DNA from: Variovorax sp. PAMC28562 | GTDB taxonomy: Bacteria > Pseudomonadota > Gammaproteobacteria > Burkholderiales > Burkholderiaceae_C | Assembly: GCF_014303735.1 (NCBI RefSeq) | Contig: NZ_CP060296.1 | Location: 1,375,501-1,439,500 of the forward strand | Length of the DNA stretch: 64,000 nucleotides | Direction of reading: 5' to 3' | Shown: piece by piece, positions 18,101 through 36,670 of the stretch | Layout: each line of letters starts with the position of its first letter | Numbering within the stretch: the first letter of the stretch is position 1 | Position numbers and translations under genes: made by a program | The notes under the pieces: generated by a model | What the model saw: only the letters and a program-made list of their open reading frames with translations | Told to the model about the DNA's origin: nothing | The model's database searches: none

Positions 18101-21100
18101 CCGCGCCTATTGTCCTGAACGACACGCTTCCGACCGGCATCACGCTGTCGGGCGTGCCGACGCTCATTGCCGGTACCTCCACCGGCACGTTGTCGGGCTG
18201 TCCTTCCAGCGGCAGCAACACCACCGGCTGCACGGTGGCGACCGGGGTCGGTGCGGGCTACTTCAGCATCAGGATTCCGGTCGACGTGGCGCCCACTGCC
18301 ACCAGCGGCACCAACACCGCCAACATCGGCGGCGGCGGCGACGCCAGCTGCACGACGGCCGCCGACTTTTGCGACAGCACCACCGACAACACGCCGATCG
18401 CCGGCCTGCCCACGGTCAACCTGTGGAGCAACACCGCGACCGCCAGCGCTGCCACGTCGACCTTCGGCTTCACCCTGACCGGACTGTCCGCCACCACCGA
18501 CAGCATCGCGGTCACCGGCAATGCGCTGGTGCGCTCCGCGCTGAACCTCACCGGCACGGTCGGCGTCGTGGCGACGATCCGCGAGTCGACCATTCCGGCC
18601 GGTTGGCGCACTTCGTTCGACGTGGTCGACTGCAGGGATTCCAATGCGCCGGGCGATGGCAACCCGACCAGCAATCTGGCGGCGCTGGCTGGCGCCACGA
18701 TCACGCTGCCGGCCGCCGCGATGCGGGGCAACGCCAATATCACCTGCACGTTCTACAACCGCAGGCCGACCATCACCGTCGTCAATCAGATCCTCGGCAC
18801 GCCGCCAGACAACGGGCTGTTCAACCTGACGATCGGCGGTGGCGCGCCGGGCGTCGACGGCACCGCGAACCCAGTGCTCGCCGTGGGCAACGGCGGCACC
18901 ATCGCCAACATCGGCGTCAACGCGGGCGGTGCGCTCACCATCGCGGAGACGGTCGGCAGCGGCACGGTGTTCGCGAACTACTTGTCGTCGTTCGCCTGTC
19001 GGGACGATCACTTCGCCATCTATGGGTCCACCGGCGGGTTCAGTGGCAACTTCACTGCGACTGCGCCGCCTGCCAGCAGCAACTCCGGTGCCGAAAATCT
19101 GACCTGCACGCTCACCAACACCGTGCTGCCTACCGTCAAAGTCGCCAAGCGATCGACCGGCGGTACCGGCGCATTCGGATTCACGCTGAGCGGCGTCACG
19201 AACACGACCGATAACGTCACCACCACCACATCGGGCACGACAGTCACTTCTGCCACGCTGCATCGCGGGTCGGTCAGCACGGCCGCCACGGTCACGGAAA
19301 CGGCCGTCGCCGGGTACGCCACTTCGGTCAGCTGTGCCGATACCAACGCGGCGGCCACCGGCAACTCGCCGGCGCTCGTCGCTGCTTCCAACACCATCAC
19401 GATCCCGCCCGCCAACATGCTCGCAGGCGCAGCGTACGTGTGCACCTTTACCAACAACAAGGTGCCGTCGATCAGCGCGACCAAGACGACCAGTACGAGC
19501 CCGTTCCTGGTCGGCGCGACAGGTCTCTACTACTCGGTGAACGTCACCGTCGGCGCATTGACCACGACGGCCGCCATCACGGCAGCCGACACCTTGCCCA
19601 ACGGCATCACGCTCAGCGGCACGCCCACCTTGGTTGCGGGCACCACCACCGGTGTCCTGAGCGGCTGCCCGACCAGCGGCAACAACCTCACCGGCTGCAG
19701 CGTCGCCAGTGGCGTGGCGCCGGGCACTTTCTCGATCCGCGTACCGGTCAGCGTGGCCGGCACTGCCATCGGCGCTGGCGGCGGCACCAACACCGTCAAC
19801 CTGAGTGGCGGTGGCGACCCGTCTTGCACCTCGGCGGCAGGCGAGGCTTGCGATGCCAAGACCGCGGCGATTCCAGTGGTCGCCAGCAACCCAACAGTGC
19901 AGATCGTCAAGACGGTCGCCAGCGGGTCGGGCAGCAACCTGTTCGGCTTTGCGTTGAGCGGCCTGTCCGCGCCGACCGACAGCGTGACGGTGGTGGGCGC
20001 GGCGTCGGGCAACGGCGCTGCCAACCTTACCGGCACCAGCGGCATCGCGGCGACGCTTCGCGAGACCTCTCCCGCCGGTTGGCCAACCAACCCTCAGAGC
20101 GCGAGTTGCGTCGACGGTAATGCGGGCGTCAGCGGCAATCCTGCCACTGCCATCGGGACGCTGTCGGGCGCGTTGCTGACCATTCCGGCAGCCAACATGA
20201 TCAATGGCGCAGCCTTCACCTGCACCTTCGTGAATGCCTATGCGTTCAGCGTGACCGGCCGCGTGTTTACCGACGACGGTGCGGGCGCAGGCACGGCCAA
20301 CGACGGCGTGTTGAACGGCGCAGAAGCCGGGGCGTCGGGGGTGACGCTGAAGTTGCTCGATTGCGGCAGTTCGAGCCTGATCGCCACGGCCGTCACCGAC
20401 GGCGCGGGCCGCTACTCGCTGGCGGTGCCGTTCGCCACCGCGGTCGGCGGCAACCTGTGCGTGCAAGAGACGACGCCCGGCACATGGCTCTCGACCGGTG
20501 CGTCGGTCGGGTCCATCGCGTTGCCTGCGGGCTCGCTCGTCACAACAGGCGGCACCGGCTACACCTACACCCGCGCGGTGCCGCTGGACGTCATCGCATT
20601 CGCATGGAACGGCAGCGGTCACGCCGACTTGAACTTCGGCGACGTACCGCCCAACACCTTCGCGACGGGGGAGGGCAAGAGCGGCACCGCAGGCAACACC
20701 GTGAGCTATCCGCACAGCTTCTCTGCGCGCAGCGCCGGGTCGGTCGGGTTTGCGATTGCCTCGTCGGTCAGGTCGCCGCCGCTGAGCGGCTGGAACGAGA
20801 AGATCATTGCCGACCCGGGCTGCACCGGTACGCTGCAAGCCGGCGCCGCCATACTCTATCCGCCCACCGTGTCGATGGTGGTCACGGCGGGCCAGCCGGT
20901 GTGCATCCTGGTGCAGGTGTTCGTGCCGGCGACCGCGCCGGCCGGCTACACCGACAACGCTGTGGTCCAGGCGAGCTTCAGCTACACCGGCGCGATGTCG
21001 GCATTGACGGCCACTTACACGCTGAACGACCTCACGACCGTTTCGGGCGGCGCGCTCGACCTCAAAAAGGAAGTTCGCAACCTGACGCAGAACGGCGTCT

Positions 21101-21426
21101 TCGGCTTCGACAACCTGGCCAAGTCGGGCGAAACGCTGGAGTACCGCATCACCTACACCAACAATGGGCCGGCGCCCATCACGGGGCTCGACGTCAACGA
21201 CGTGACGCCCAGCTACACCACCTTCGTCGCGGCGACCGCAGGCACCACGCCAGCGGCATTGACCGCCTGCGCCAAGCGCACGCCGGGCAACCCTGCGCCA
21301 CAGCCGACCGTGCCGTGCGCCACCGTGCAGTCGACCGGCGGCACCGGCCCCCTGCGCTGGAGCTTGACCGGGCCGCTCGATCCGGGTGCCAGCGGAACGG
21401 TGCTGTTTTCCGTCAAGCTCGACTGA
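15112..21426 (+). CDS. Giant secreted repeat protein (glycine-rich head, DUF11 and prealbumin-like repeats)
   Basis: Protein of 2104 residues starting at GTG, with AGGA seven bases upstream. A hydrophobic segment near residues 22-36 ends L-A-S-C-G-A-Q-G-A, readable either as a lipobox or as a type I signal cleavage site. Residues about 55-345 are a glycine-rich domain like the beta-rich heads of adhesins and receptor kinases. Then come three DUF11-type beta sandwiches (from 16151, 17998 and 19461), each followed by prealbumin/SpaA-like units that share a C...C-D pair and end in F-T-C-T-F-x-N. After 20236 a SdrD_B-like domain (V-T-G-R-V-F-T-D-D-G) and a final DUF11 domain end at F-S-V-K-L-D, without sortase or PEP-CTERM anchor. 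It is probably a cell-surface or released adhesive protein; the ligand is unknown. Confidence 0.88.
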   Translation: MFLLIGFARSYAKAEWHPVPWRGAVLACLAVLASCGAQGAQTACTPQAGFTACTQFSYSGVDQTFTVPAGITTLNFKAWGAGGGGSVPNAYGNGSAGGGYATGNLVVAAGNSLTVVVGGGGSAATASAVSGSPAYGGCGAGSSATGGTPLVGGGGGGRSAVQLSGTERLTAGAGGGAVVDQAYDTFPVAGAGGGTTGLAGSNYAPAGCGAAGGSGGQGGTQGAGGAGGVSADSARNGSAGAARQGGAGGNGVPFASSTGNSGGGGGGGGYYGGGGGNGDSNISCGSQAAGGGGSSYTGAVTGGSTTAGTGSTAGNAVDSVYVAGVGAGGAQGAAGGNGLVVIQYNLPPVVTSSMTASANPLLGGVSGQYYTLVVNVGTAPTTAPISIADTLPANIVLSGTPTIVAGTAVLSGCPSTGGATGGCTVAAGVAVGSFSIRFPISVATTATSGTNSANLSGGGDPNCTAVLPDACDATTPTTSVYNPPLVMLNAQTAYAASNSSTFGYTITGLSISSDSIATVGSGYTASSQNAAGIYGTAGTTVTIVASGIPAGWPTNLDSATCTDANAATDGNGSTSTNFASYTGNTLTLPGTAMRAGARFTCAMGNARPSVFLKKQIFGIPPDSGLFNLTIGGANLTSGGNPVYNVGSGGTTTGVGVDVGSALTLTETAGTNTNLASYVSSVACIDFSSSAYSTGVGGSAGNYTLTAPSASSSGKAKNLICTITNTLAPGVLVGKQSIGSTGTFNFSLTGVTNTSDSVTTVNPSVTVVSGVQHAGTVGTAITVSETATPGYTTSASCADANNSVTGNNTPIVSATNSITIPAGNVKTSASYVCTFTNNKLPTVRITKVSNGGGSSGVGTFGFTGTNGVSAVSITTTSPNVAASGPEQTVSLANTVTTVKESSVPAFWPSNPASVFCVDNNASVSGNSAGANYATLAGNVATIPAAAMKSGATFNCTFYNTLYPPPNLSSTKTPSANPLIVGASGQSYTVNIFTNATTTAPIVLNDTLPTGITLSGVPTLIAGTSTGTLSGCPSSGSNTTGCTVATGVGAGYFSIRIPVDVAPTATSGTNTANIGGGGDASCTTAADFCDSTTDNTPIAGLPTVNLWSNTATASAATSTFGFTLTGLSATTDSIAVTGNALVRSALNLTGTVGVVATIRESTIPAGWRTSFDVVDCRDSNAPGDGNPTSNLAALAGATITLPAAAMRGNANITCTFYNRRPTITVVNQILGTPPDNGLFNLTIGGGAPGVDGTANPVLAVGNGGTIANIGVNAGGALTIAETVGSGTVFANYLSSFACRDDHFAIYGSTGGFSGNFTATAPPASSNSGAENLTCTLTNTVLPTVKVAKRSTGGTGAFGFTLSGVTNTTDNVTTTTSGTTVTSATLHRGSVSTAATVTETAVAGYATSVSCADTNAAATGNSPALVAASNTITIPPANMLAGAAYVCTFTNNKVPSISATKTTSTSPFLVGATGLYYSVNVTVGALTTTAAITAADTLPNGITLSGTPTLVAGTTTGVLSGCPTSGNNLTGCSVASGVAPGTFSIRVPVSVAGTAIGAGGGTNTVNLSGGGDPSCTSAAGEACDAKTAAIPVVASNPTVQIVKTVASGSGSNLFGFALSGLSAPTDSVTVVGAASGNGAANLTGTSGIAATLRETSPAGWPTNPQSASCVDGNAGVSGNPATAIGTLSGALLTIPAANMINGAAFTCTFVNAYAFSVTGRVFTDDGAGAGTANDGVLNGAEAGASGVTLKLLDCGSSSLIATAVTDGAGRYSLAVPFATAVGGNLCVQETTPGTWLSTGASVGSIALPAGSLVTTGGTGYTYTRAVPLDVIAFAWNGSGHADLNFGDVPPNTFATGEGKSGTAGNTVSYPHSFSARSAGSVGFAIASSVRSPPLSGWNEKIIADPGCTGTLQAGAAILYPPTVSMVVTAGQPVCILVQVFVPATAPAGYTDNAVVQASFSYTGAMSALTATYTLNDLTTVSGGALDLKKEVRNLTQNGVFGFDNLAKSGETLEYRITYTNNGPAPITGLDVNDVTPSYTTFVAATAGTTPAALTACAKRTPGNPAPQPTVPCATVQSTGGTGPLRWSLTGPLDPGASGTVLFSVKLD
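16151..20235 (+). repeat. Nested tandem coding repeats in the giant surface protein
   Basis: Three super-repeats, each starting with a DUF11-type module (16151-16560, 17998-18420, 19461-19893) that contains D-T-L-P, L-S-G-C-P and G-G-G-D. The first is followed by four prealbumin-like units, the second by three and the third by one, so the super-repeats shrink from about 1.85 to 1.46 to 0.78 kb. Corresponding units align between copies (for example G-T-F-N-F-S-L-T-G-V-T-N-T against G-A-F-G-F-T-L-S-G-V-T-N-T), which indicates duplication of multi-domain blocks rather than of single domains. Confidence 0.8.
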
Positions 21427-21467
21427 CCTTTCGCTCGCGCCGCCTTCCGCCCGCCGTGGGAATGCGC

Positions 21468-21483
21468 TGGCACGTCGCTTGCA
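21468..21483 (+). promoter_or_regulatory. Sigma-54 (-24/-12) promoter upstream of allophanate hydrolase
   Basis: TGGCACG-TCGC-TTGC-A matches the sigma-54 consensus at every conserved position, with the -24 GG at 21469-21470 and the -12 GC at 21481-21482. Transcription should start near 21493, about 24 bases before the ATG. It needs an enhancer-binding activator, most likely NtrC under nitrogen limitation. I could not identify its binding site, which would lie inside the repeat-protein gene. Confidence 0.8.
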
Positions 21484-21488
21484 TGGCA

Positions 21489-21502
21489 TCTTGTACACAA
21501 GA
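21489..21502. promoter_or_regulatory. Palindromic operator candidate TCTTG-N4-CAAGA
   Basis: TCTTG-TACA-CAAGA, a perfect 5-bp inverted repeat over the expected sigma-54 transcription start. Its core TTGTAnnCAA resembles operators of GntR/FCD regulators, and such a regulator lies in the same cluster at 35545. The same element, at identical distance from a -24/-12 promoter, recurs at 28126. Confidence 0.6.
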
Positions 21503-21516
21503 CGGGATGCTTGACG

Positions 21517-23238
21517 ATGGTGCATACGAAAAGCGACGGGGCCCCGGCTGCCTGGATCACCCGGTTCGACACCGCGGCGGCGACCGCGAGCGCTGTTTCG
21601 AGTGCGGCGGGCGCGCTGGCGGGGCTCAGCTTCGCCGCCAAAGACAACATCGACGTTGCCGGCGTGCCGAGCACTGCCGCCTGCGCCGAGTTCGCGGCTT
21701 TCCGTGCGACACCTAGTTCGCATGCCTATGTGGTGCAGCGCCTGCTCGATGCCGGTGCGGCATGCCTTGGCAAAACCAATCTCGACCAGTTTGCCTGCGG
21801 CCTGAACGGCACGCGTTCGCCCTACGGCGCGGTCCCCAACAGCTTCGATGCGCGCTATGTCTCGGGCGGATCGAGCTCAGGCTCTGCCTACGTTGTCGCG
21901 ACCGGGCAAGTCGACTTCTCGCTCGGCACCGACACCGCAGGTTCCGGCCGCGTGCCGGCCGGGCTCAACAACATCGTCGGCCTCAAGCCGTCGCGCGGGC
22001 TCATCAGCGCACGCGGCGTGGTGCCGGCGGCGCAGAGTATCGATTGCGTTTCGATCTTCGCGCGCACCGTGGCGCTGGCGCTCGAGGTGCTGCACGCGGC
22101 AAAGGGCTTCGACGCGGCGGACCCGTACGCGCGGCAACTTGAACTGACGAACGTACCGTACCCGAAGCGCTTTAGATTCGGCGTGCCGTCGGCGCTGGCC
22201 TTCTTTGGTGACGACGCATCGGAAGCTGCATTCGCACACGCGATCGCGCGGCTTAAAGCAATGGGCGGCGTGCAGGTCGCCATCGACTACGCACCGCTCG
22301 CAGAGATCGCCGCACTGCTCTACGACAGCGCACTGGTCGCCGAGCGCTACGCCGCGGTGCGCGAGTTCTTCGACGCGCACGAGGCCGAAGTGATGGAGCC
22401 GGTGCGCGGCATCCTCGCTGCCGGTCGTGGTTACAGCGCGGCCGATCTGGTCGAGGCACAAATCAAGCTGCGCACACTGGCCCAGCGCGTCGCCCCAATG
22501 TGGAACGACATCGACCTGCTGCTGGTGCCGACTGCGCCGACGCACTACACGATCGAAGCGATGCAGGCCGACCCGGTCGTGCTCAACCGCAACCTCGGCG
22601 CGTACACCAACTTCGTCAACCTGCTCGACTACGCCGCGATCTCTGTGCCGAGCACCTTGCGGCCCGACGGCATGCCGTTCGGCATCACGTTGATCGGCCT
22701 GTGCGGCAGCGACTTGCAACTGGCGGAACTGGGCCAGCGCTATCACCACGCGAGCGGGCTCACGCAAGGCGCGACTGGCGAGCCGCTGCCGGCGCCCGTC
22801 GACGTGTTCGCGAACGCATCGACGGCCCCGGCAACATCAGCGCCTGCCATGGCGCGCGTCGCCGTCGTCGGCGCTCATCTGTCGGGCATGCCGCTCAACA
22901 GCCAACTTGCCGACCGCGGCGCGACGCTGGTCGCCAAGACGCAAAGCGCACCGAGCTACCGCCTCTACGCCTTGCCCGGCACCGTGCCGCCCAAGCCCGG
23001 CATGGTCCGCGTCGCGCCGGGCGAAGGCGTCGCGCTCGAACTCGAAGTGTGGGAGATGCCGATGGCGCAATACGGCAGCTTCGTTGCGCTCATTCCTGCG
23101 CCCCTCGGCATCGGCACGCTGGCACTGGCCGATGGCAGCAGCGTGCAGGGCTTCGTCTGCGAAGCGCTGGCGCTCGACGGTGCCGAAGACATCTCGCATC
23201 ACGGTGGCTGGCGCAGGTACATCGCTTCGCGCTCATGA
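21517..23238 (+). CDS. atzF: Allophanate hydrolase
   Basis: Amidase-signature enzyme that splits allophanate to ammonia and CO2, the last step of urea-amidolyase and s-triazine pathways. Residues 1 to about 430 form the amidase domain with catalytic K42 (F-A-A-K-D-N-I), the serine cluster G-G-S-S-S-G-S at 117-123 and nucleophile S143 in T-D-T-A-G-S-G-R. The C-terminal 130 residues match the extra allophanate-hydrolase domain (Y-R-L-Y-A-L-P-G, G-W-R-R-Y-I). The ATG at 21517 is preceded in frame by a TTG at 21511; either is possible. Gene order with an ABC importer, AtzG, AtzE and AtzH downstream supports the AtzF role. It is first in the operon behind the sigma-54 promoter. Confidence 0.93.
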   Translation: MVHTKSDGAPAAWITRFDTAAATASAVSSAAGALAGLSFAAKDNIDVAGVPSTAACAEFAAFRATPSSHAYVVQRLLDAGAACLGKTNLDQFACGLNGTRSPYGAVPNSFDARYVSGGSSSGSAYVVATGQVDFSLGTDTAGSGRVPAGLNNIVGLKPSRGLISARGVVPAAQSIDCVSIFARTVALALEVLHAAKGFDAADPYARQLELTNVPYPKRFRFGVPSALAFFGDDASEAAFAHAIARLKAMGGVQVAIDYAPLAEIAALLYDSALVAERYAAVREFFDAHEAEVMEPVRGILAAGRGYSAADLVEAQIKLRTLAQRVAPMWNDIDLLLVPTAPTHYTIEAMQADPVVLNRNLGAYTNFVNLLDYAAISVPSTLRPDGMPFGITLIGLCGSDLQLAELGQRYHHASGLTQGATGEPLPAPVDVFANASTAPATSAPAMARVAVVGAHLSGMPLNSQLADRGATLVAKTQSAPSYRLYALPGTVPPKPGMVRVAPGEGVALELEVWEMPMAQYGSFVALIPAPLGIGTLALADGSSVQGFVCEALALDGAEDISHHGGWRRYIASRS

Positions 23239-23326
23239 CGCCTGCCCTTCTTCGCCTTCGCCTTCTTCTCCCGCCTTTTCCCTTGTCCTTTTCTCTACCG
23301 TCCCATTCAACGAGGAGCCCGAGTCC

Positions 23327-24328
23327 ATGAGCAACCCCGAACAGTTTCATCGCGCATCGCGCCGGCAGCTTTTGCAGGCGGGCGCCGCGGGGGTCGCCGT
23401 GCTGGCAGCACCGGCCATCGTGCGCGCCCAGACCGGCCCGAAAATCCGCATCGGCTTTTGGCCCGTCGCGGCCGGTCTGCCGTTTTTTGCCGCCCTTGAA
23501 AAAGGCTACTTCAAGGAAGCCGGACTCGACGTCGAGCCGCTCAAGTTCGCGGGCGCGCAGCAGGTGATGGAAGCCATGCTCTCCGGCCGCGGAGATGGCA
23601 GTGCCAACGGCACCGGCACGGCCAACCTCGCCATCGGCGAGATCGCACAGCCCGGCCTGTTCAAGATCTTCTGCACCAACCCGAGCAACGTGAAGTACGT
23701 GCTCGACGAGTTCATCACCGGCAAGGACAGCGCCATCAAGACGATGGCCGACCTGAAGGGCAAGCGGGTCGCCTCCGGGCCCGGCATCCAGAACACCACG
23801 CTGTGCAAGACCATGCTGGAGCGCGCCGGCGCAACCGGCGCCACGGTGACGGAGCTGCCCATCGGCCAGCACGTCGCCTCGCTGGTGGCAGGCCAGGTCG
23901 ACGCCTGCTACACGCTGGAGCCGACCGGCACCATCGGACGCATGAACGGCACCACCCGCGTCATCGAAGCGGGTGTCGTCGCCAAGTACATCCTGGGCGA
24001 TCCGATGGCGCCATGGCACGGCGGCGCGGGCAGCCTCACGACCGAGTTCATCAAGAAGAACCCCGAAGTCTCGAAGAAGTTCATCGCGGCCTATGCACGT
24101 GGCGTCGACCTCGTGCGCACCAAACCAGACGAAGCCCGCCAGTTCATGAAGGGCTACACGGCCATCGAAGGGCCGCTCACCGCCGAGGTGCCGCTGGCCT
24201 CCTACATGCTCTACAACGAATTCAAGCCGAGCGACATCGCGTACTTCCAGAAGTTCTACGACCTGTTCAGCGACAAAGGCATCTTCGAGAAGAAGGTTCC
24301 GGTCGAGCCTTTGATCTACAAGGCCTGA
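23327..24328 (+). CDS. ABC transporter substrate-binding protein (NMT1/SsuA type), Tat signal
   Basis: Periplasmic binding protein of 333 residues for an importer whose permease and ATPase follow. The signal has a twin-arginine motif (A-S-R-R-Q-L-L-Q) and a hydrophobic stretch ending A-I-V-R-A, so export in folded form is expected. The mature start K-I-R-I-G-F-W-P-V-A-A-G-L-P-F-F-A-A-L-E-K-G-Y-F is typical of the NMT1/SsuA/TauA family, which binds small planar or sulfonated nitrogen compounds and pyrimidine precursors. Position between atzF and atzGE suggests cyanurate, biuret or a related ureide as ligand; this is inference. The start at 23327 was chosen over the longer frame because it gives a clean signal peptide and has GAGGAG upstream. 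Confidence 0.9.
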   Translation: MSNPEQFHRASRRQLLQAGAAGVAVLAAPAIVRAQTGPKIRIGFWPVAAGLPFFAALEKGYFKEAGLDVEPLKFAGAQQVMEAMLSGRGDGSANGTGTANLAIGEIAQPGLFKIFCTNPSNVKYVLDEFITGKDSAIKTMADLKGKRVASGPGIQNTTLCKTMLERAGATGATVTELPIGQHVASLVAGQVDACYTLEPTGTIGRMNGTTRVIEAGVVAKYILGDPMAPWHGGAGSLTTEFIKKNPEVSKKFIAAYARGVDLVRTKPDEARQFMKGYTAIEGPLTAEVPLASYMLYNEFKPSDIAYFQKFYDLFSDKGIFEKKVPVEPLIYKA

Positions 24329-24330
24329 CC

Positions 24331-25179
24331 ATGGCCGACGCCACGATCAGCACCACTCCACCGTCCGCCACGGCGATGCCGTGGAAACCGCCTGCCGGCG
24401 CTGCCGCCGTCTCGGTGTCCACGGCACCCGCCTGGGACCGCTTGCTGCCCTTCATCGGGCCGATCGTGCTGTTCATCTTGTGGGACCTGGTGGTGCGCTT
24501 CGGCTTCATCAAGCAGATCCTGCTGCCGACACCGATCGACACGCTGCACGCACTCGCGACCGGTCTCGCTGGCGGGCCGCTGCTCCTCGATTTCGCGGTC
24601 ACGGTGTGGCGCACGCTGCAGGCTTTCGTGATCGCGGCCGTCATCGGCGTACCGCTCGGCGTGCTGCTCGGCAGCAATGAAAAGGCGTACCGCAGCGTCG
24701 AGTTCCTGATCGACTTCTTTCGCTCGACGCCCTCGTCCGCACTGATCCCGTTGTTCCTGCTGGTCTTCGGCGTGTCGGACGTCAACAAGGTGGCCATCGC
24801 CGCCTTCGGCGCCTTCCTCATCGTGATCTTCAACAGCGCCTACGGCGTGATGAACGCCCGCAAGCAGCGCGTCATGGCGGCCCGGGTGATGGGCGCTTCG
24901 CGCTGGCAGATCTTCAAGGACGTGCTGATCTGGGAGAGCCTGCAACCGACCTTCGTGGGCCTGCGCTCTGCCGTATCGATGGCGCTGGTGATCGTGATCG
25001 TGGCCGAAATGTTCATCGGCTCCGACAGCGGCTTGGGCCATCGCATCATCGACGCGCAGCAGGTGCTCAACGTGAAGAGCATGTACGCGGCCATCCTGGC
25101 GGCCGGCGCGTTGGGCTATGCGCTCAACATTCTTTTCCTGCTGGCCGAGCGCCGCATCGTCCATTGGTCGGGGAGGTGA
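24331..25179 (+). CDS. ABC transporter permease (SsuC/TauC type)
   Basis: Inner-membrane permease of 282 residues with about six helices, two bases after the binding-protein stop. It carries the coupling motif region around A-A-R-V-M-G-A-S-R-W-Q-I-F-K-D-V (EAA-like loop) and L-R-S-A-V-S-M-A-L. An N-terminal extension of about 40 residues rich in Ala, Pro and Thr precedes the first helix. Together with its neighbours it forms a nitrate/sulfonate/taurine-type importer. The tight spacing implies cotranscription with the binding protein and ATPase. Confidence 0.9.
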   Translation: MADATISTTPPSATAMPWKPPAGAAAVSVSTAPAWDRLLPFIGPIVLFILWDLVVRFGFIKQILLPTPIDTLHALATGLAGGPLLLDFAVTVWRTLQAFVIAAVIGVPLGVLLGSNEKAYRSVEFLIDFFRSTPSSALIPLFLLVFGVSDVNKVAIAAFGAFLIVIFNSAYGVMNARKQRVMAARVMGASRWQIFKDVLIWESLQPTFVGLRSAVSMALVIVIVAEMFIGSDSGLGHRIIDAQQVLNVKSMYAAILAAGALGYALNILFLLAERRIVHWSGR

Positions 25180-25184
25180 GCACC

Positions 25185-26021
25185 ATGCGCGCAATCCTGA
25201 ATGGGCCGGTATTGAATGGCCCGGTGTTCGCCGATGTGCCGGTACCCGCCTTCGTGCCCGGCCCCGCCGGCACGCACATCACGATCCGCGGTCTGACCAA
25301 GTACTTCGCCGGTTGGCCGCTGTACGAGAACTTCGACCTCGATATTCCGAAGCATGCGATCGTCTCGGTGTTCGGGCCCAACGGCTGCGGCAAGTCGACG
25401 CTCATCAACATGATCGCGGGGCTGGTCCCGATCGATGCGGGCGAGATCCTGTTCGACGGCAAGCAGCGCAAGGACACCAAGATCGGCTACGTGTTCCAGA
25501 ACTACCGCGAGGCGATGTTCCCGTGGATGCGCACCATCGACAACATCGCCTATCCGCTCAAGCTGGAAGGCAAGAGCAAGGCGGAAGTCGACCGCCGCAT
25601 GGCCGAACTGGTGGCGTCGTTCGACGTCAAGTTCGACCTCAAGCGCTACCCGTACGAGCTCTCCGGCGGCCAGCAACAAACAGCGTCGATCATGCGGGCG
25701 CTGGCGCCCAACCCCGAAGTGCTGTTCTTGGACGAGCCGTTCTCCGCGCTCGATTTCGAGATGACGCTCTTCATCCGCGAGAAACTGCAAGAGGTCTTCA
25801 TGAAGACCGGCACCACCATGCTGCTGGTCTCGCACGACCTCGAAGAAGCCGTGTACCTGGCCGACCAGGTGCTGCTCCTGACCAAGCGCCCGACCCGGGT
25901 GGCCGAAATCTTGCGTTATGGCGATGCACGGCCCCGCACCGTGGAGACGCTGAGCGAGCCGAGCTTCGTGGCCATGAAAAAGCGCAGCCTCGAAATCTTC
26001 CAGCGTGAAGTCAGACGATGA
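25185..26021 (+). CDS. ABC transporter ATP-binding protein (SsuB/TauB type)
   Basis: Importer ATPase of 278 residues, starting at the ATG at 25185 with GGGAGG eight bases upstream. Walker A is G-P-N-G-C-G-K-S-T, Walker B V-L-F-L-D-E-P-F-S-A-L and the H-loop S-H-D-L-E-E-A. The signature reads L-S-G-G-Q-Q-Q-T, with threonine where most relatives have arginine, a small oddity that may not affect function. An N-terminal tail of about 25 residues precedes the first strand. It energises the preceding permease. Confidence 0.92.
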   Translation: MRAILNGPVLNGPVFADVPVPAFVPGPAGTHITIRGLTKYFAGWPLYENFDLDIPKHAIVSVFGPNGCGKSTLINMIAGLVPIDAGEILFDGKQRKDTKIGYVFQNYREAMFPWMRTIDNIAYPLKLEGKSKAEVDRRMAELVASFDVKFDLKRYPYELSGGQQQTASIMRALAPNPEVLFLDEPFSALDFEMTLFIREKLQEVFMKTGTTMLLVSHDLEEAVYLADQVLLLTKRPTRVAEILRYGDARPRTVETLSEPSFVAMKKRSLEIFQREVRR

Positions 26022-26028
26022 GGTTGCC

Positions 26029-26235
26029 ATGACGCCTGTGCAGATCGAAACCTATGTGGATGCGGCGGCTGCCGCGCTGGGGCTTCGGCTTCGGCCGGAG
26101 CACCGTGCGGGCGTTCTGGGCTACTTCACGCTGGCGGCGGGATTTGCCGACATCGTCGAGGCGGTACCTTTGGCGCCTTCACACGAGCCCGCGGTGACGT
26201 TCGTGCCCGTGAGCCCGACGGAGCAAGAGCAGTGA
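26029..26235 (+). CDS. atzG: AtzG-like small subunit (DUF4089)
   Basis: Protein of 68 residues, all helical in appearance (Q-I-E-T-Y-V-D-A-A-A-A-A-L, R-A-G-V-L-G-Y-F-T-L-A-A-G-F-A), similar in size and pattern to AtzG of Pseudomonas sp. ADP. That protein pairs with AtzE in a GatC/GatA-like complex and is needed for stable, active 1-carboxybiuret hydrolase. Its stop overlaps the GTG start of the amidase by four bases (GTGA), as expected for two subunits made in equal amounts. It follows the ABC ATPase by seven bases. The name is assigned from size, helical pattern and gene order, not a search. Confidence 0.85.
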   Translation: MTPVQIETYVDAAAAALGLRLRPEHRAGVLGYFTLAAGFADIVEAVPLAPSHEPAVTFVPVSPTEQEQ

Positions 26236-27659
26236 ACCCCGCAGCGTTTCTGGCCAGCGATGCGTCGTCGATGGCCGCCGCGGTGCGGGCCAACGAGGTC
26301 AGCGCGGTGGCGCTGGTGCAGGCCAGCCTGGAGCGCATCGCCGCGACCGACAGCCGCGTCAACGCGTTCACCGAAGTGCTGCAGGCGCGGGCGCTGCGGC
26401 GCGCGTCGCAGGTCGATGTCTCGCTGGCTTCGGCCCACGGCGATCGCACGCGCGAGCTGCCGCTGCTGGGCGTGCCGTTCGCCGTCAAGAACCTGTTCGA
26501 CATCGCCGGCATCGCCACGTTGGCCGGCTCGAAGATCGAGCGCGAGAGTGCGCCGGCGCGCAGCGATGCTGCGCTTGTGCGACGCCTCGAAAGCGCTGGC
26601 GCGGTGCTGGTCGGCGCGCTCAACATGGACGAGTACGCCTACGGTTTCACCACCGAGAACAGCCACTACGGACCGGTGCGCAATCCGCATGACGGCAGCC
26701 GCATCGCAGGTGGTTCGTCGGGCGGTTCGGGTGCTGCGGTGGCGGCGGGGCAGGTGCCGCTGACGCTCGGCTCGGACACCAACGGATCGATCCGCGTGCC
26801 GGCTTCGCTGTGCGGCGTGTTCGGGCTCAAGCCGACCTTCGGCCGCCTGCCGCGCACCGGCAGCTATCCTTTCATTTCGAGCCTGGACCACCTCGGCCCG
26901 TTCGCGCGGTCGACGCGCGATCTGGCGCTGGCGTACGACGCCATGCAGGGGCCGGAGAGCTTCGGCCATCGCGACCCCGGTTGTGCGCAGCGCGATGTAG
27001 AGGCCGTCGTCAAAGATCTCGACCTCGGCACGCAGGGTCTGCGCATCGGCGTGCTCGGCGGCTACTTTCGGGAGCACGCAGGGCCGGAAGCGCTTGTCGC
27101 GGTCGACCGCGTGGCCGATGCGCTGGGTGCGGTCAACACCGTGATGCTGCCGATGGTCGATGCCGGCCGCGCGGCCGCGTTTCTCATCACCAACTCCGAA
27201 GGTGCGGCATTGCACTTGAGTGACTTGCGCAACCGTCCGCACGACTTCGAGCCGCTGTCGCGCGACCGATTTTTAGCCGGTGCGTTGCTGCCGGCCGCGT
27301 GGGTTGCGCGCGCCCAGCGTGTGCGCCGCGCCTATGCCGAGGCGGTGGCGCGCGTGTTCGAGCGCTACGACATCCTGCTGGCCGCGGCAACGCCTTCAGC
27401 TGCCACGCCCATCGGTGCGGAATGGTTCGAGATCAACGGCCAGCGGCTGCCGGTGCGCCCGAACATGGGGCTGCTGACGCAACCCATTTCTTGCGTCGGG
27501 CTGCCCGTCTGCGCGGTGCCGGTGTGGGGCGCCCATGCGACCTTGCCGATCGGGGTGCAGGTGATCGGCGCACCCTGGCGCGAAGACCTGGTGCTGCGCG
27601 TGGCGGCCGCGCTCGAAGCGGCCGGCGTGGTGCATGCGCCGGTGGCTGCGCTCAACTGA
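26232..27659 (+). CDS. atzE: 1-carboxybiuret hydrolase subunit (AtzE-like amidase)
   Basis: Amidase-signature enzyme of 475 residues starting at GTG. The catalytic triad is K86 (F-A-V-K-N-L), the serine in G-G-S-S-G-G-S at 160-166, and nucleophile S186 in G-S-D-T-N-G-S-I-R. In the Pseudomonas ADP pathway AtzE with AtzG deaminates 1-carboxybiuret to 1,3-dicarboxyurea, rescuing the unstable product of cyanurate ring opening before it decarboxylates to biuret. Coupling to an AtzG-type gene and an AtzH-type gene directly downstream make this assignment stronger than a generic amidase call. A role on other ureides cannot be excluded. Confidence 0.9.
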
Positions 27660-27690
27660 ATCACTTCAACACGACAACCTAAAGACGATC

Positions 27691-28074
27691 ATGTTCCCGC
27701 AACTCAGCATCAACCTGCCCGACGTCGTTGCACAAGTCACCGCCGCATTCGAGCGCTACGAAGACGCGCTCGTCACCAACAAGGTCGAGGTGCTCGACGA
27801 ATTGTTCTGGGCCAGCACGCTCACGCTGCGCTACGGCGCCACCGAAAACCTGTACGGCCATGCCGAGATCCAGGCCTTCCGTGCCGGACGCCCCGCCGTG
27901 GGGCTTCAGCGCGAATTGCTGCGCACCGTCATCACCACTTATGGGCACGACTTCGCGACCGCCAACTGCGAATTTCGCCGTGCCGGCACCGAGCGCACGG
28001 GCCGCCAGAGCCAGACGTGGATGCGCACGCCCGAGGGCTGGCGCGTGGTGTCCGCGCATGTGAGCCTGCTCTGA
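27691..28074 (+). CDS. atzH: AtzH-like protein (DUF3225, NTF2-like fold)
   Basis: Protein of 127 residues with an NTF2-like cone: a long N-terminal helix ([12 protein letters not shown]), then strands ending [10 protein letters not shown]. This matches the DUF3225 family, whose member AtzH in Pseudomonas ADP is assigned to 1,3-dicarboxyurea decarboxylation, giving allophanate for AtzF. The ATG at 27691 follows atzE by 31 bases. It is the last gene of the first transcription unit; a new promoter and operator lie between it and the next gene. Confidence 0.85.
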
Positions 28075-28104
28075 AATCGGTATCGATTTCGGTGCACTTG
28101 GGCT

Positions 28105-28120
28105 CGGCACGCTTTGTGCA
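28105..28120 (+). promoter_or_regulatory. Sigma-54-like promoter upstream of the BMP transporter operon
   Basis: CGGCACG-CTTT-GTGC-A keeps the invariant -24 GG (28106-28107) and -12 GC (28118-28119) at the correct spacing, with mismatches only at weakly conserved positions. The start point would be near 28130, about 70 bases before the ATG. It aligns closely with the stronger promoter at 21468. Confidence 0.65.
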
Positions 28121-28125
28121 TACCT

Positions 28126-28139
28126 TCTTGTATCCAAGA
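28126..28139. promoter_or_regulatory. Second palindromic operator candidate TCTTG-N4-CAAGA
   Basis: TCTTG-TATC-CAAGA has the same arms as the site at 21489. In both cases it begins exactly 20 bases after the first G of the -24 element. It covers the predicted transcription start and is therefore well placed for repression or ligand-gated control. Confidence 0.6.
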
Positions 28140-28201
28140 TAGAACCGTTGTTGGATCTGTCCAAGGACTAAACCGCAAGTTGCCCAAAACCGGAGAGAGC
28201 C

Positions 28202-29314
28202 ATGAAGAGTCAATTCAACCGTCGCGATTCCCTCAAGTCCCTTGCCGCGCTCGGCGCAGCGGGCACCCTTGGAGGTTTCAGCGCACTCGCCAGCGCGCAA
28301 AAGCCGCTCACCGTCGGCGTCATCTACGTCGGCCCGCGCGACGACTACGGCTACAACCAGGCCCACGCCCAGGCTGCGGCCGAGATCAAGAAGATGCCCG
28401 GCATCAAGGTCGTCGAAGAAGAGAACGTACCCGAGACCGCGGCGGTGCAAAAGACCATGACCGGCATGATTTCGCAGGACGGCGCCAAGCTGCTGTTCCC
28501 GACTTCTTACGGCTACTTCGACCCGCACATCCTGGCGCTCGCCCCCAAGGACCCCGATGTACGCTTTTCGCATTGCGGCGGCCTTTGGACCGAGAGCATG
28601 CCGAAGAATGTCGGCAGTTTCTTCGGCTACATCGACGAATGCCAGTTCTTGAACGGCGTGATTGCCGGCCACATGAGCAAGAGCGGCAAGATCGGCTTCG
28701 TCGCCGCCAAGCCGATCCCGCAGGTGCTGCGCAACATCAACGCCTTCACGCTGGGTGCGCGCTCGGTCAAGCCTGGCATCACCTGCAGTGTCATCTTCAC
28801 GGGTGAGTGGTCGATGCCGGTGAAAGAAGCCGAAGCCACCAACAGCCTGGCCGACCAGGGTTGTGACGTTTTCACGATGCACGTCGATGGCCCCAAGGTG
28901 GTCGTCGAGACGGCAGCCAAGCGCGGCAAGATGGTTTGCGGCTACCACGCGAGCCAGGCCAAGCTGGCGCCTCAGGCCTACCTCACGGGTGCCGAGTGGA
29001 ACTGGCTCACCGCCTACAAGACCATCATCGAAGCCGCGCAAGCCAGCAAGCCGCACCCCAACTTTTTGCGTGGCGGCCTGAAGGACGGCTACGTGAAGAT
29101 GTCGGCCTACGGCCCGGCCGTGACCGACGCCGCCAAGAAGCAGGCCGACGACGTCAAGGCCCGGATGATCGCCGGCACCTTCGACATCTTCAAAGGCCCG
29201 TTGAAGGACAACAAGGGCAAGGAAGTGCTGGCGGCTGGCAAGTCGCAAAAGCAGACCGACATCGAACTCGAAAAGATGAACTATCTGGTCGAAGGTGTGA
29301 ACGGCAGTTTCTAA
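28202..29314 (+). CDS. BMP-family ABC substrate-binding protein (AtzT-like)
   Basis: Periplasmic binding protein of 370 residues of the basic membrane protein / PnrA class, which binds nucleosides, purines and related nitrogen heterocycles. The signal (N-R-R-D-S-L-K-S-L-A-A-L-G-A-A-G) contains a double arginine and ends A-L-A-S-A. The mature part opens T-V-G-V-I-Y-V-G-P-R-D-D-Y-G-Y-N-Q-A-H, typical of the class. Two permeases and a double ATPase of the same transporter type follow, interrupted by hydrolase genes. A BMP-type protein, AtzT, belongs to the cyanurate cluster of Pseudomonas ADP, so a triazine or ureide ligand is plausible. Confidence 0.9.
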   Translation: MKSQFNRRDSLKSLAALGAAGTLGGFSALASAQKPLTVGVIYVGPRDDYGYNQAHAQAAAEIKKMPGIKVVEEENVPETAAVQKTMTGMISQDGAKLLFPTSYGYFDPHILALAPKDPDVRFSHCGGLWTESMPKNVGSFFGYIDECQFLNGVIAGHMSKSGKIGFVAAKPIPQVLRNINAFTLGARSVKPGITCSVIFTGEWSMPVKEAEATNSLADQGCDVFTMHVDGPKVVVETAAKRGKMVCGYHASQAKLAPQAYLTGAEWNWLTAYKTIIEAAQASKPHPNFLRGGLKDGYVKMSAYGPAVTDAAKKQADDVKARMIAGTFDIFKGPLKDNKGKEVLAAGKSQKQTDIELEKMNYLVEGVNGSF

Positions 29315-29323
29315 AGGCCGAGC

Positions 29324-30406
29324 ATGCGCAACGCCCTCCGCGAAATCGCTTTGCCGGTGTTCGCTATCGTGGCGGCGCTGTTGCTCTTCGGCCTGCTGGT
29401 CGCCTTTGCCGGGGTCGATCCGGTGGCAGTGTGGGTGACGCTTTTCAAGGGCGCGTTCGGCGACTGGTTCTCATGGCAGAACACGTTGCAGCGGGCGGCG
29501 CCGCTCATGCTCACCGCGTTGTGCGTGGCCATCCCGGCGCGGGCCGGGCTGGTCATCATCGGCGGCGAAGGGGCGTTGGTGCTGGGCGGACTCGCCTGCG
29601 CGGCATTGGCCCATGCCGTCCCGTTGCCTGCCAACGTCATCGGCACCGTGCTGGTGTGCATCGCCGGCGCCTTCGCCGGGGGGCTGTGGATCATGCTGGC
29701 GGGCCGGTTGCGGCAGTACCGTGGCATCAACGAAACCATCAGCAGCCTGCTGCTGGCCTACATCGCCATCGGCATCTTCAAGCACCTGGTCGAAGGCGTG
29801 CTGCGCGACCCGGCCAGCCTGAACAAACCCTCGACCTATCCGCTGCCCGAAGCCTTGCTCATCGGCGGCATCGGCGGCTCCGACATTCATTGGGGTCTGG
29901 TCATCGGCATCGTGGCCTGCATCGGACTCGGGCTCTGGTTGCGCATCACGGCGTCGGGCTTTGCGATCCGGGTGGTGGGCGGCAATCCGCGCACCGCGCA
30001 GCTCGTCGGCCTGCCTGCGACCAAGTTGATTCTTGCGGCGTGCGGTATCGGCGGTGCGTGTGCCGGCGTGGCGGGCGCGGTCGAAGTCGCTGCCGTGCAC
30101 ACCAACGCCAACGCGTCGCTGATCGCCGGCTATGGCTACGCCGGCATCCTGGTCTCGTTCATCGCGCGGCACAACCCGATCGCGATCATTCCGGTCGCCA
30201 TTTTGTTCGGCGGCTTCGGTGCGGCGGGCAGCCTGTTGCAGCGTCGGCTCGGCTTGCCCGATGCGTCGGTGCTGGTGCTGCAGGGGATCGCGTTCGTGCT
30301 GATCCTCGCGAGCGAGGGGCTGCGGATGATCGACTGGAAGAAGCTGAGCGCGAAGACCATCGCTGCGGGTTCGGCCCAGAAGACCAACACCGTGGAGGCT
30401 GCATGA
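29324..30406 (+). CDS. ABC transporter permease, nucleoside/BMP type (subunit 1)
   Basis: Membrane permease of 360 residues with about nine helices. Family landmarks are N-T-L-Q-R-A-A-P-L-M-L-T-A-L near residue 47, I-I-G-G-E-G-A-L-V-L-G, R-Q-Y-R-G-I-N-E-T-I-S-S-L-L, and Y-G-Y-A-G-I-L-V-S-F, all typical of the BPD_transp_2 permeases that accompany BMP binding proteins. It begins nine bases after the binding-protein stop. A C-terminal tail of about 25 residues after the last helix is hydrophilic. Confidence 0.9.
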   Translation: MRNALREIALPVFAIVAALLLFGLLVAFAGVDPVAVWVTLFKGAFGDWFSWQNTLQRAAPLMLTALCVAIPARAGLVIIGGEGALVLGGLACAALAHAVPLPANVIGTVLVCIAGAFAGGLWIMLAGRLRQYRGINETISSLLLAYIAIGIFKHLVEGVLRDPASLNKPSTYPLPEALLIGGIGGSDIHWGLVIGIVACIGLGLWLRITASGFAIRVVGGNPRTAQLVGLPATKLILAACGIGGACAGVAGAVEVAAVHTNANASLIAGYGYAGILVSFIARHNPIAIIPVAILFGGFGAAGSLLQRRLGLPDASVLVLQGIAFVLILASEGLRMIDWKKLSAKTIAAGSAQKTNTVEAA

Positions 30407-30422
30407 ACGCTGCCCGTTCACC

Positions 30423-31343
30423 ATGACCGCGGACCAATGGGTGGCGCTTGTCGCCGGCATCGTCGGCGGTGCCTTGCGTGTTGGCGCACCGTTTCTTTTC
30501 GTGAGCCTGGGTGAATGCCTGACCGAGAAATCGGGCCGTATCAACCTGGGCCTCGAAGGCGTGCTGGTCCTGTCGGCGATGGCGGCTTTCGGCGGTGCGT
30601 ACTTCACCGGCTCACCCTGGCTCGGCGTGCTGATCGGCGCCTGCGCCGGCGCGGCGCTCGCCTTGCTGCACGGCTTGTTGTGCTCGCTTGACGGCGTCAA
30701 CGACGTCGCGACCGGCATCGCGTTGATGCTCTTCGGCACCGGCCTCGCGTTCTATCTCGGCAAGCCGCTGATCCAGCCGCAAGCGCCGCAGATCCCGGCG
30801 ATCCCGCTCGGCGACTGGAGCGACAACCCGGTCGTTCGCTCGGCGCTGCAGCTGAACGCGCTGGTGCCGGTCGGCCTCCTGCTCGCGGTCTTTTTGTGGT
30901 GGGGCTTCGCACGTACGCGCGCCGGCCTGCTGGTGCGCATGGCGGGCGATTCGGCCAACGCGACGCGGGCGCTCGGCTACTCGGTGGCGGGCATTCGCAT
31001 CGCGGCCACCACGGCGGGCGGCTTCATCGCCGGGCTCGGTGGGGCGTCGCTCACGCTGTTCTATCCGGGCAGCTGGAACGAGGGCATCTCCAGCGGGCAG
31101 GGCTTGATCGCGGTGGCACTGGTCATCTTCGCGCGCTGGAGCCCGCTGCGGTGCGTCGGTGCGGCCTTCCTCTTCGGCGGTGCGGGCGCCATCGGACCGG
31201 CGCTGCAATCGGTCGGCGTGGGCTGGGGCTACCACCTCTTCAACACGGTGCCCTACGTACTCACGCTGGTGATCCTGGTCATCACATGCAAGCCCGGGAG
31301 CGTCGCGATCGGCAGTCCTGGCGAGTTGTCTTCGACGCGCTGA
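30423..31343 (+). CDS. ABC transporter permease, nucleoside/BMP type (subunit 2)
   Basis: Second permease of the BMP-type importer, 306 residues with about eight helices. The characteristic stretch A-P-F-L-F-V-S-L-G-E-C-L-T-E-K-S-G-R-I-N-L-G-L-E-G is close to that of YufQ/NupQ-type permeases, followed by D-V-A-T-G-I-A-L-M-L-F-G-T-G-L. A seven-codon mini-frame starting at the stop of the first permease ends at this gene's ATG and may couple translation. The corresponding ATPase is at 33193, after two hydrolase genes. Confidence 0.9.
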   Translation: MTADQWVALVAGIVGGALRVGAPFLFVSLGECLTEKSGRINLGLEGVLVLSAMAAFGGAYFTGSPWLGVLIGACAGAALALLHGLLCSLDGVNDVATGIALMLFGTGLAFYLGKPLIQPQAPQIPAIPLGDWSDNPVVRSALQLNALVPVGLLLAVFLWWGFARTRAGLLVRMAGDSANATRALGYSVAGIRIAATTAGGFIAGLGGASLTLFYPGSWNEGISSGQGLIAVALVIFARWSPLRCVGAAFLFGGAGAIGPALQSVGVGWGYHLFNTVPYVLTLVILVITCKPGSVAIGSPGELSSTR

Positions 31344-31379
31344 TCGTTCGGCGCGCCAACCCTTATAGGAATCAGTGAA

Positions 31380-32462
31380 ATGAGTGGATTCGGTGGCTTG
31401 AACAAATCGGCGAACGGCGTCGTCATCGGCCTGGTGCAACTGCAGTTGCCAACGGTCAAGACCAAAGCCGACCTCACGGCGCAGACGCAGCGTGTCTGCG
31501 ACATGGTCGGCAAGGCGAGGCGCAACCAGGGCACGATGGACCTCGTCGTGTTTCCCGAGTATTCGCTGCACGGCCTCTCGATGGACACCTCGCCTGAAAT
31601 CATGTGCGAGCTCGACGGCCCCGAGGTGAAGGCGCTGCGGCAGGCGTGTGTCGACAACACCATCTGGGCCTGCTTCTCCATCATGGAAGCCAACCCCGAC
31701 GGCAACCCGTACAACTCCGGGCTCATCGTCGACGACATGGGCGCGATACGGCTCTACTACCGCAAGCTCCATCCGTGGGTGCCGGTCGAGCCGTGGGAGC
31801 CGGGCAACGTCGGCGTGCCGGTGTGCGACGGCCCCAACGGCAGCAAGCTCGCGCTCATCATCTGCCACGACGGAATGTTCCCGGAGATGGCGCGCGAGGC
31901 CACGTACAAGGGTGCTGAAATCATCCTGCGCACCGCCGGCTACACGGCGCCGATCCGCCATGCCTGGAAGATCACCAACCAGGCCAACGCCTTCTGCAAC
32001 CTGGCCTACACCGCGAGCGTGTGCCTGTGCGGCAGCGACGGCAGCTTCGACTCGATGGGCGAAGGCATGTTCTGCAGCTTCGACGGCACGGTGATGGTCG
32101 AAGGCGGCAGCCGCGTCGACGAAATCATCACTTGCGAACTGCGGCCCGACCTGGTGCGCGAAGCCCGCACCGGATGGGGCGTCGAGAACAACATCTACCA
32201 GCTCTACCACCGCGGCTACGTGGCAGTGAAGGGCGGGGCGCAAGACTGCCCCTACACCTACATGCAGGACATGGCGGCCGGCAACTACAAGCTGCCGTGG
32301 AGCCACCAGGTGCAGGTGACGGACGGCACCTCGTGCGGCTTTGCGGCGCCGCTTCGTGCCTACAAGGGCCACGAGATGCATCCGCTCGTACCGCAACTCC
32401 CCGCCGCGCTGCCCGACATTCCGCAAGACCCCGCCTCGGCACACCGGAGGGCTCTCGATTGA
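31380..32462 (+). CDS. Formamidase (nitrilase superfamily, AmiF-like)
   Basis: Carbon-nitrogen hydrolase of 360 residues that should release ammonia from formamide or another short amide. The catalytic triad is visible as E in V-F-P-E-Y-S, K in Y-R-K-L-H-P-W and C in I-I-C-H-D-G-M. Long segments recall AmiF of Helicobacter (F-S-I-M-E-x-N-P, P-V-C-x-G-P-x-G-S-K-L-A, W-G-x-E-N-N-I-Y) better than aliphatic amidase AmiE. AGGA lies ten bases before the ATG. It overlaps the biuret hydrolase start by one base (TGATG), so the two are coupled. In this cluster it may remove a small amide by-product, but no cluster reaction visibly produces formamide. Confidence 0.85.
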
Positions 32463-33184: not shown

Positions 33185-33192
33185 AAGACCGC

Positions 33193-34842: not shown

Positions 34843-34860
34843 CCAACCGAGAAGCACACC

Positions 34861-35535: not shown

Positions 35536-35544
35536 CATTCCGCG

Positions 35545-36474: not shown

Positions 36475-36660
36475 TCACTTTAGCGCTCTCAATTCTTCCC
36501 CCAAAAACTCCGTAAACGCATAGGCAATCAGCGGCGGCTGCCGCCCGTGCAGACTCGCCAGCACCATCTCCACTTTCGGAAAGCCGCGGTCCTCGATGGA
36601 CGCCAGCGCCTGGCTGGCGACCAGCGCGATAAGGCAGCAAAGCAATGCGCCGTGTGGCAC
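36475..36660 (-). pseudogene. Possible LysR-family C-terminal remnant
   Basis: A minus-strand frame of 61 codons. The last 30 (V-E-M-V-L-A-S-L-H-G-R-Q-P-P ... A-F-T-E-F-L-G-E-E-L-R-A-L-K) recall the final strand and helix of LysR effector domains, where A-F-x-x-F-L precedes the stop. There is no helix-turn-helix anywhere upstream. If correct, a divergent LysR regulator was deleted and replaced by the present arrangement. AtzR, the cyanurate regulator of Pseudomonas ADP, is a LysR protein, which makes the idea attractive but not proven. Confidence 0.3.
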
Positions 36661-36670
36661 GGTGGGTGCT
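36655..36670 (+). promoter_or_regulatory. Weak sigma-54-like site before the third cysteine hydrolase
   Basis: TGGCACG-GTGG-GTGC-T has the -24 GG and -12 GC at correct spacing. The predicted start, near 36680, falls at the ATG (36682) and would leave no leader, so use of the site requires a downstream start codon (for example ATG at 36715), or the match is fortuitous. Confidence 0.35.

Follow-up and report, generated by a model that had tools for sequence, protein, structure and literature searches.

Two promoters in a biuret/triuret gene cluster of Variovorax sp. PAMC28562 combine a sigma-54 promoter element with a palindrome that lies across the predicted transcription start. They are found in a stretch of 64,000 nucleotides (contig NZ_CP060296.1, positions 1,375,501 to 1,439,500), called the window here, and all window coordinates below are positions in that stretch; L-numbers are labels of compared loci. 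One promoter precedes atzF, the gene for allophanate hydrolase, and the other precedes an operon that begins with the genes for a BMP-type transporter (the bmp operon). The comparisons described below make it likely that these are sigma-54 promoters of one biuret/triuret regulon, repressed at the start site by the GntR/FCD protein encoded in the same cluster (35545-36333) and released by an effector. An earlier reading of this DNA (the original prediction) had proposed that protein as the ligand of the palindrome, and the proposal gains support from the grammar of the operator, its co-occurrence with gntR, its covariation with a residue in the wing of the protein, and its position at the start site.

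Two promoters with one architecture

Sigma-54 elements were recognized by GG-N10-GC at -24/-12 with a sequence near TGGCACG-N4-TTGCW, of which 13 consensus positions were scored. Transcription starts were placed from the -24/-12 spacing, with the GG taken as -25/-24. The two promoters consist of the following features:

21467-21483, plus strand: sigma-54 -24/-12 element of the atzF promoter, CTGGCACGTCGCTTGCA; GG at 21469-21470 and GC after 10 further bases; 13/13 scored consensus positions
21489-21502, plus strand: predicted GntR operator of the atzF promoter, TCTTGTACACAAGA; about -5 to +9 of a predicted start near 21494
28104-28120, plus strand: sigma-54 -24/-12 element of the bmp promoter, TCGGCACGCTTTGTGCA; GG at 28106-28107; 11/13 scored positions, with GG-N10-GC retained
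28126-28139, plus strand: predicted GntR operator of the bmp promoter, TCTTGTATCCAAGA; about -5 to +9 of a predicted start near 28131

The original prediction of a -24/-12 element followed by TCTTG-N4-CAAGA before both atzF and the BMP operon proved exact to the base, as did its placement of the palindrome 20 bases after the first G of the -24 GG in both cases. The palindrome does cover the predicted start at both promoters, judged by the -24/-12 spacing, and the sigma-54 class holds for both, the element being conserved as well as close to consensus. The earlier alignment of the two blocks over "about 37 bases" is a fair description, with 24/34 bases identical from the GG to the end of the palindrome.

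The bare palindrome has 2 exact matches in the window, which is not significant for the window alone (0.90 matches expected with up to one mismatch, and 19 of 100 shuffles reach 2), and it was therefore dropped as stand-alone evidence in favor of the combined motif introduced below. The whole 4.69-Mb genome contains 3 exact copies, namely the atzF and bmp sites and a third (L003) inside an open reading frame of 336 amino acids. A search of the same genome for additional targets with up to 3 mismatches to TCTTGTATACAAGA gave 18 sites, fewer than the 27 of the reversed control, and hence no excess. Four sites have up to 2 mismatches to that sequence, two of them the known ones; the other two (L205 and L206) fall within reading frames of 555 and 106 amino acids and were rejected, so that no further target is claimed. 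Separately, a sigma-54-like element with no operator lies at 36654-36670 (11/13 scored positions), before a rutB-like gene at 36682, with its predicted start approximately at the ATG.

Conservation within Variovorax

Among 100 Variovorax genomes, the present one included, 82 carry close orthologs of the GntR protein (E < 1e-100). The loci compared were 82 stretches of up to 20 kb from 81 other genomes which, together with the window, make 83 stretches, 73 with an atzF start and 74 with a bmp start. A sigma-54 element with an operator (up to 2 mismatches) at +20 is found in 71/73 atzF promoters, or 72/73 when one counts L055, whose more altered operator, ACATGTGTACATGT, retains 6/7 pairs. The sole exception in the genus, L108, has kept the palindrome and lost the -12 element; its -24 half directly joins the operator, an arrangement that fits a short deletion between CTTG repeats. 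The bmp promoters have the sigma-54 element and operator in 36/74 cases, with one further case in which an operator accompanies a damaged -24 element.

Conservation within these promoters is concentrated in the two elements. For atzF (67 distinct sequences) the column information is 1.60 bits in the promoter element and 1.76 in the operator, compared to 0.27 in the upstream flank; conservation extends to the downstream leader and start codon (1.69 bits). The corresponding values for bmp (25 distinct sequences) are 1.57 and 1.87 bits, with 0.34 and 0.33 in the flanks. The arms of the atzF operator vary symmetrically, the outer pair being T-A in 29, A-T in 36 and unpaired in 7 of 72 sequences.

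The combined motif GGYAYN6TGCN6WCWTGN4CAWGW has 107 matches, distributed over 79 of the 100 genus genomes, and its reversed control has none in the same genomes. Within the loci and the window there are 97 matches, of which 71 lie 20-300 bp before atzF and 25 before bmp; the remaining one (L051) has a bmp-type sequence with no annotated start within 300 bp. Ten matches lie outside those loci, and 6 of these directly precede an atzF match, as found by comparing coordinates by eye. Judged from these sequences, the combined promoter architecture is not due to chance.

Position of the operator beyond the genus

A wider sample consisted of atzF promoters from GntR-linked loci with sufficient upstream sequence, 51 from the family and 27 from named loci. 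The sigma-54 element and operator occur together in 45/51 and 23/27 of these, at offsets of 8 to 30 bases and in one case 39. The offset is 20 in 30 of the 45 family promoters that carry both elements, and in 29/33 of the family loci whose atzF is more than 60% identical. Gammaproteobacterial loci (L242, L311 and others) have the same kind of promoter, in which the operator is shifted downstream by 7 to 8 bases. The expectation that the 20-base offset would be kept in relatives thus stood for the genus and the close family loci, and did not hold as a rule elsewhere; a universal +20 rule is ruled out by the observed range.

These offsets bear on the idea that the palindrome works in RNA, or that it is part of the sequence recognized by sigma-54. 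Either possibility would account for the location at the start site and for the fixed offset in close relatives. The offset varies widely outside these relatives, which argues against both; in addition, the predicted transcript begins inside the palindrome, leaving an RNA without the left arm, and good sigma-54 elements in GntR-less clusters (see below) lack the palindrome. We regard this explanation as very improbable.

When the region from -200 to +120 relative to the -24 element was scanned, 137/169 operator-like sites fell between 0 and +20, counted from the predicted start. This clustering favors start-site repression over activation. It is conceivable that the palindrome is indeed the GntR operator and that GntR activates, or merely modulates, by bending the DNA or by helping open-complex formation; the near-consensus -24/-12 elements argue that GntR need not be the sole control. 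The clustering at the start speaks against such a role, and the characterized relatives Atu1419 (PMC7797058) and HutC (PMC12977541) are described as repressors, making an activating or modulating GntR unlikely.

The GntR/FCD protein as predicted ligand

The protein consists of a winged helix-turn-helix domain (PF00392, 59.8 bits) and an FCD domain (PF07729, 74 bits). Members of the HutC subfamily are marked by a UTRA effector domain; no match to UTRA was found in this protein at E 1e-5, and FCD is present instead. The modeled structure has a predicted local distance difference test (pLDDT) score of 89, and its fold matches include FCD structures such as Atu1419. Residues were matched to those named for Atu1419 (PMC7797058) by type and spacing, not by structural superposition, and on this basis the metal-type ligands of the FCD domain (D131, H135, H179 and H201) and the DNA-contact-type residues (E31, R42, T43 and R46) are invariant in 12 diverse GntR sequences.

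FadR-subfamily operators have been described as TKGT/ACMA boxes, with 2-nt spacing in some groups (PMC4494728), and the atzF operator, TTGT-AC-ACAA, fits TKGT-N2/3-ACMA. The form of the operator also follows the protein. Of 195 loci with a GntR match, 131 have a classifiable site, with L170 counted as R from the alignment. Where the wing residue is R, sites of the TTG..CAA form without a CCA half are found in 111/118 classified loci (one of which also has a mixed site), and where it is K a CCA half is found in 12/13. Across these aligned sequences, operator type changes with the wing residue.

Within the genus, GntR and the combined motif are both present in 78 genomes, GntR only in 4, the motif only in 1, and neither in 17. 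Plasmid records were used in addition because an atzF locus without gntR, the necessary control, is nearly non-existent within the genus. The plasmid set comprises 14 atzF loci, consisting of 13 of the 40 matches listed plus pADP-1. All three loci with a GntR homolog have a sigma-54 element with a FadR-type operator, at offsets of 16 (Cupriavidus, L299), 12 (Ideonella, L300) and 27 (Pantoea, L311). The 11 loci without a GntR homolog, covered over 10 to 20 kb each, show no case of sigma-54 element plus operator and no exact operator. They include two rhizobial bmp operons with sigma-54 elements matching 12 and 13 of 13 positions, and at one of these loci (L308) a GntR protein is annotated that is too divergent to give a match. 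Comparable biuH/trtA/atzF or atzD-atzF genes have a LysR gene beside them in place of GntR in Agrobacterium, Sulfitobacter and pADP-1 (L304, L305 and L302). Between the BMP and ATPase genes of pADP-1 lies an operator-like site with one mismatch (L298); it has no adjoining sigma-54 element, was estimated to be near chance and was rejected.

Could the palindrome be bound by another, unlinked regulator, while GntR controls something else? Regulators can act in trans, and the plasmid contrast is confounded with taxonomy, as discussed below. Nevertheless, the operator tracks GntR in the 14 plasmid loci, its type tracks the GntR wing residue and its sequence fits the FadR-subfamily grammar, so that an unlinked regulator appears quite improbable.

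A possible nitrogen input

The genome has one match over the cut-off to the RpoN model (TIGR02395) and likewise one to NtrC, with three more strong NtrC matches (300 to 409 bits) below the cut-off. The original prediction had invoked NtrC control at both promoters, and as claimed this is unsupported: the NtrC gene is present, but NtrC-like sites are not enriched in the 250 bp upstream, where the mean best score is 8.67 for 70 atzF and 8.65 for 69 bmp promoters versus 9.02 for 1660 random windows. Some sigma-54 promoters are reported to work without an upstream activator site. A lead was found on the other side of the atzF promoter:

21508-21524, plus strand: TGC-N7-TGGTGCA, which spans the start codon of atzF and looks like an NtrC site whose left half is degenerate (a lead and no more)

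This motif covers the atzF start codon in 71/71 genus leaders and 22/29 family leaders, while TGGTGCA or its complement occurs in 72/72 atzF leaders versus 4/36 bmp leaders after the operator. This level of conservation is seen even though GTG or TTG serves as the start codon in 7/29 family leaders. The motif is possibly a downstream NtrC site, or it may reflect translation. With no upstream site standing out and an ambiguous downstream motif, NtrC control has to be inferred. NtrC is nonetheless a plausible activator, helped by a published prediction that lists atzF in the NtrC regulon of Rhizobiales (PMC5343134).

GntR might repress as proposed while an activator other than NtrC serves the sigma-54 promoters. 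The lack of an NtrC-like site in the 250 bp upstream and the three additional matches to the NtrC model favor this possibility. In favor of NtrC itself, the pathway scavenges nitrogen, atzF belongs to the predicted rhizobial regulon just cited, and, according to one account (PMC6834077), the operons of Pseudomonas sp. ADP depend on sigma-54 and nitrogen starvation induces them. A different activator is on balance somewhat unlikely.

A candidate effector

Homologs of the GntR protein (about 50-58%) adjoin atzF and a urea carboxylase gene in Pectobacterium, Acinetobacter, Marinobacter, Pantoea and others, and in Pantoea (L311) annotated urea transporter (urt) genes lie behind the atzF/urea carboxylase/gntR cluster. 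Urea carboxylase is encoded in 15/53 named loci, 13 of which also have atzF. The product of urea carboxylase is allophanate (PMC5050338), which is a carboxylate; the effector site of Atu1419 is filled by citrate, also a carboxylate (PMC7797058). Allophanate is favored because it is an intermediate common to the biuret/triuret and the urea carboxylase clusters, and GntR homologs adjoin atzF in both. On these sequence grounds, and with modest confidence, allophanate would be the first candidate for the effector.

Proposed mechanism and points against it

The best way to model these promoters is as parts of one regulon, with both driving uptake of biuret/triuret-type compounds and their degradation, which would yield allophanate and ammonia. 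Judging from its sequence and conservation, the -24/-12 element would be bound by RNA polymerase carrying sigma-54. The polymerase would need an ATPase as activator, for which NtrC, acting when nitrogen is limiting, is the most likely candidate. A GntR/FCD dimer is predicted to occupy the start-site palindrome, from operator grammar, co-occurrence and covariation, and its position and family suggest that the bound protein would block start-up. A pathway intermediate, with allophanate as the best candidate, may then enter the metal-containing FCD domain and release the repressor. Where the bmp operator is retained, gntR would limit its own synthesis.

Several observations weigh against this model or parts of it. 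At the bmp promoter of the window the operator, TTGT-AT-CCAA, has one mismatch to the FadR grammar (CCAA rather than ACMA). Within the genus the operator is missing at 37/74 bmp promoters, 3 of which retain a 2-mismatch remnant, and in 18 of the 36 bmp operators the outermost bases do not pair; the bmp copy of the operator is dispensable. Outside close relatives the offset is variable, 6/51 family and 4/27 named atzF promoters have no operator by the criteria used, and 19/169 operator-like sites fall in bins upstream of -20. The wing comparison has exceptions in 7 R-type loci with a CCA half and 1 K-type locus without one; it takes no account of phylogeny, and 64/195 loci were unclassified. 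Both atzF and gntR are present in 80 genus genomes, with atzF alone in 1 and gntR alone in 2, and because the two genes nearly always co-occur the genus data cannot tell which of them the operator belongs to. Ten of the 11 GntR-less plasmid loci are alphaproteobacterial and the 3 positives are beta- and gammaproteobacterial, so that taxonomy confounds the GntR contrast. The failure to find enriched upstream NtrC-like sites counts on the same side, and the case for allophanate as effector rests on synteny.

The gene cluster

The genes from 21517 to 36333 are all co-directional, and the second promoter lies within the 127-bp gap after atzH. They are assigned as follows:

21517-23238, plus strand: atzF, allophanate hydrolase (NF006043/TIGR02713, over cut-off)
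23327-26021, plus strand: SsuABC-like ABC transporter, with binding protein 23327-24328, permease 24331-25179 and ATPase 25185-26021 (family similarity below curated cut-offs)
26029-28074, plus strand: atzG-like gene 26029-26235, atzE 26232-27659 and atzH/hpxZ-like gene 27691-28074
28202-31343, plus strand: BMP-type transporter, with binding protein 28202-29314 and permeases 29324-30406 and 30423-31343
31380-32462 and 32462-33184, plus strand: formamidase and biuH, respectively (both above cut-off)
33193-34842, plus strand: transporter ATPase, between biuH and the second BiuH-family hydrolase
34861-35535, plus strand: BiuH-family paralog (TrtA-like; below BiuH cut-off)
35545-36333, plus strand: gntR, GntR/FCD regulator (PF00392 and PF07729), 9 bp after the preceding gene

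As judged from these assignments, the cluster proteins suggest that biuret/triuret-type compounds are taken up and degraded to allophanate and ammonia. Given the 9 bp gap, the bmp operon probably ends with gntR, which is therefore probably autoregulated. The cyanuric acid hydrolase gene atzD (37888-39030) lies downstream of gntR in this genome and is found in 0/82 other Variovorax loci, whose downstream side was covered for up to 3.6 kb. Elsewhere it is located either between atzH and bmp (family loci L150 and L152) or after gntR (family locus L175 and named locus L219); atzD is an accessory gene. On the upstream side, an open reading frame of 2104 amino acids (15112-21426) stops 90 bp ahead of the atzF start codon; it contains repeated segments and, by eye, resembles a surface protein.

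Relation to known systems and significance

The closest precedent for the wiring is HutC at the Pseudomonas hutU promoter, where a GntR-family repressor of a nitrogen-yielding catabolic operon has a footprint overlapping the sigma-54 site (PMC12977541, PMC8871633). The HutC site is given as TGTA-N2-TACA, and NtrC also acts at hutU (same sources). HutC belongs to another GntR subfamily, whereas the regulator considered here is an FCD protein with a predicted operator centered on the start, in a pathway that leads from biuret and triuret to allophanate.

Atu1419 of Agrobacterium fabrum (VanR group, FCD; PDB 6za3) is among the best fold matches of the GntR protein. Its DNA target is the 10-mer ATGTATACAT, where GT and AC are spaced by 2 nt as they are here; its zinc site consists of one Asn and three His residues, and its palindromes overlap or sit between promoter elements (PMC7797058). 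It differs in being only about 24% identical over the fold match, in acting at promoters with predicted -10/-35 boxes and in having a folate-type effector according to a section title of that paper (PMC7797058).

The cyanuric acid genes of Pseudomonas sp. ADP share the end of the pathway (atzD, atzG, atzE, atzH and atzF) and the BMP-type transporter, and both pADP-1 operons are described as sigma-54 dependent (PMC6834077). Their regulator is the LysR protein AtzR, and neither a GntR homolog nor a sigma-54-linked FadR-type operator was found in pADP-1 98500-108845. No LysR gene was found among the 15 assigned genes at 21517-36333, which agrees with the earlier suggestion that the wiring here would be unlike that of AtzR. 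Different wiring is also seen in the mum urea carboxylase operon of Acinetobacter baumannii, with its LysR regulator MumR (PMC5050338). Herbaspirillum and Rhizobium triuret/biuret clusters encode the same enzymes (TrtA, BiuH and AtzF), with no description of regulation in the parts of that report available to us (PMC7948467). A gntR gene appears in a synteny legend for ammonia-oxidizer clusters (PMC12625717), and a GntR gene is also noted in such clusters elsewhere (PMC13296017). Within the open-access literature searched, in part as excerpts, no published targets were found for a GntR regulator of biuret/triuret or urea carboxylase clusters, and the combination of a sigma-54 promoter with start-site GntR wiring, kept in many relatives, appears not to have been described.

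More broadly, and tentatively, at a level of belief somewhat short of even, the sequences raise the possibility that allophanate-sensing GntR/FCD repressors act on sigma-54 promoters across beta- and gammaproteobacteria wherever the biuret, triuret, cyanuric acid and urea carboxylase pathways meet, with LysR proteins in other lineages. The signal would then be the shared metabolite rather than the starting substrate, and the atzF promoter would also have a downstream NtrC-like site. Similar enzyme sets are in any case accompanied by either GntR or LysR regulators. The analysis provides a testable regulator, operator and effector for the use, in a soil genus, of cyanuric acid and of biuret/triuret, which occur in urea fertilizer. 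It also illustrates a way of joining a sigma-54 promoter and a pathway repressor at one start site. If allophanate is the signal, the GntR protein could be used as a biosensor for that compound.

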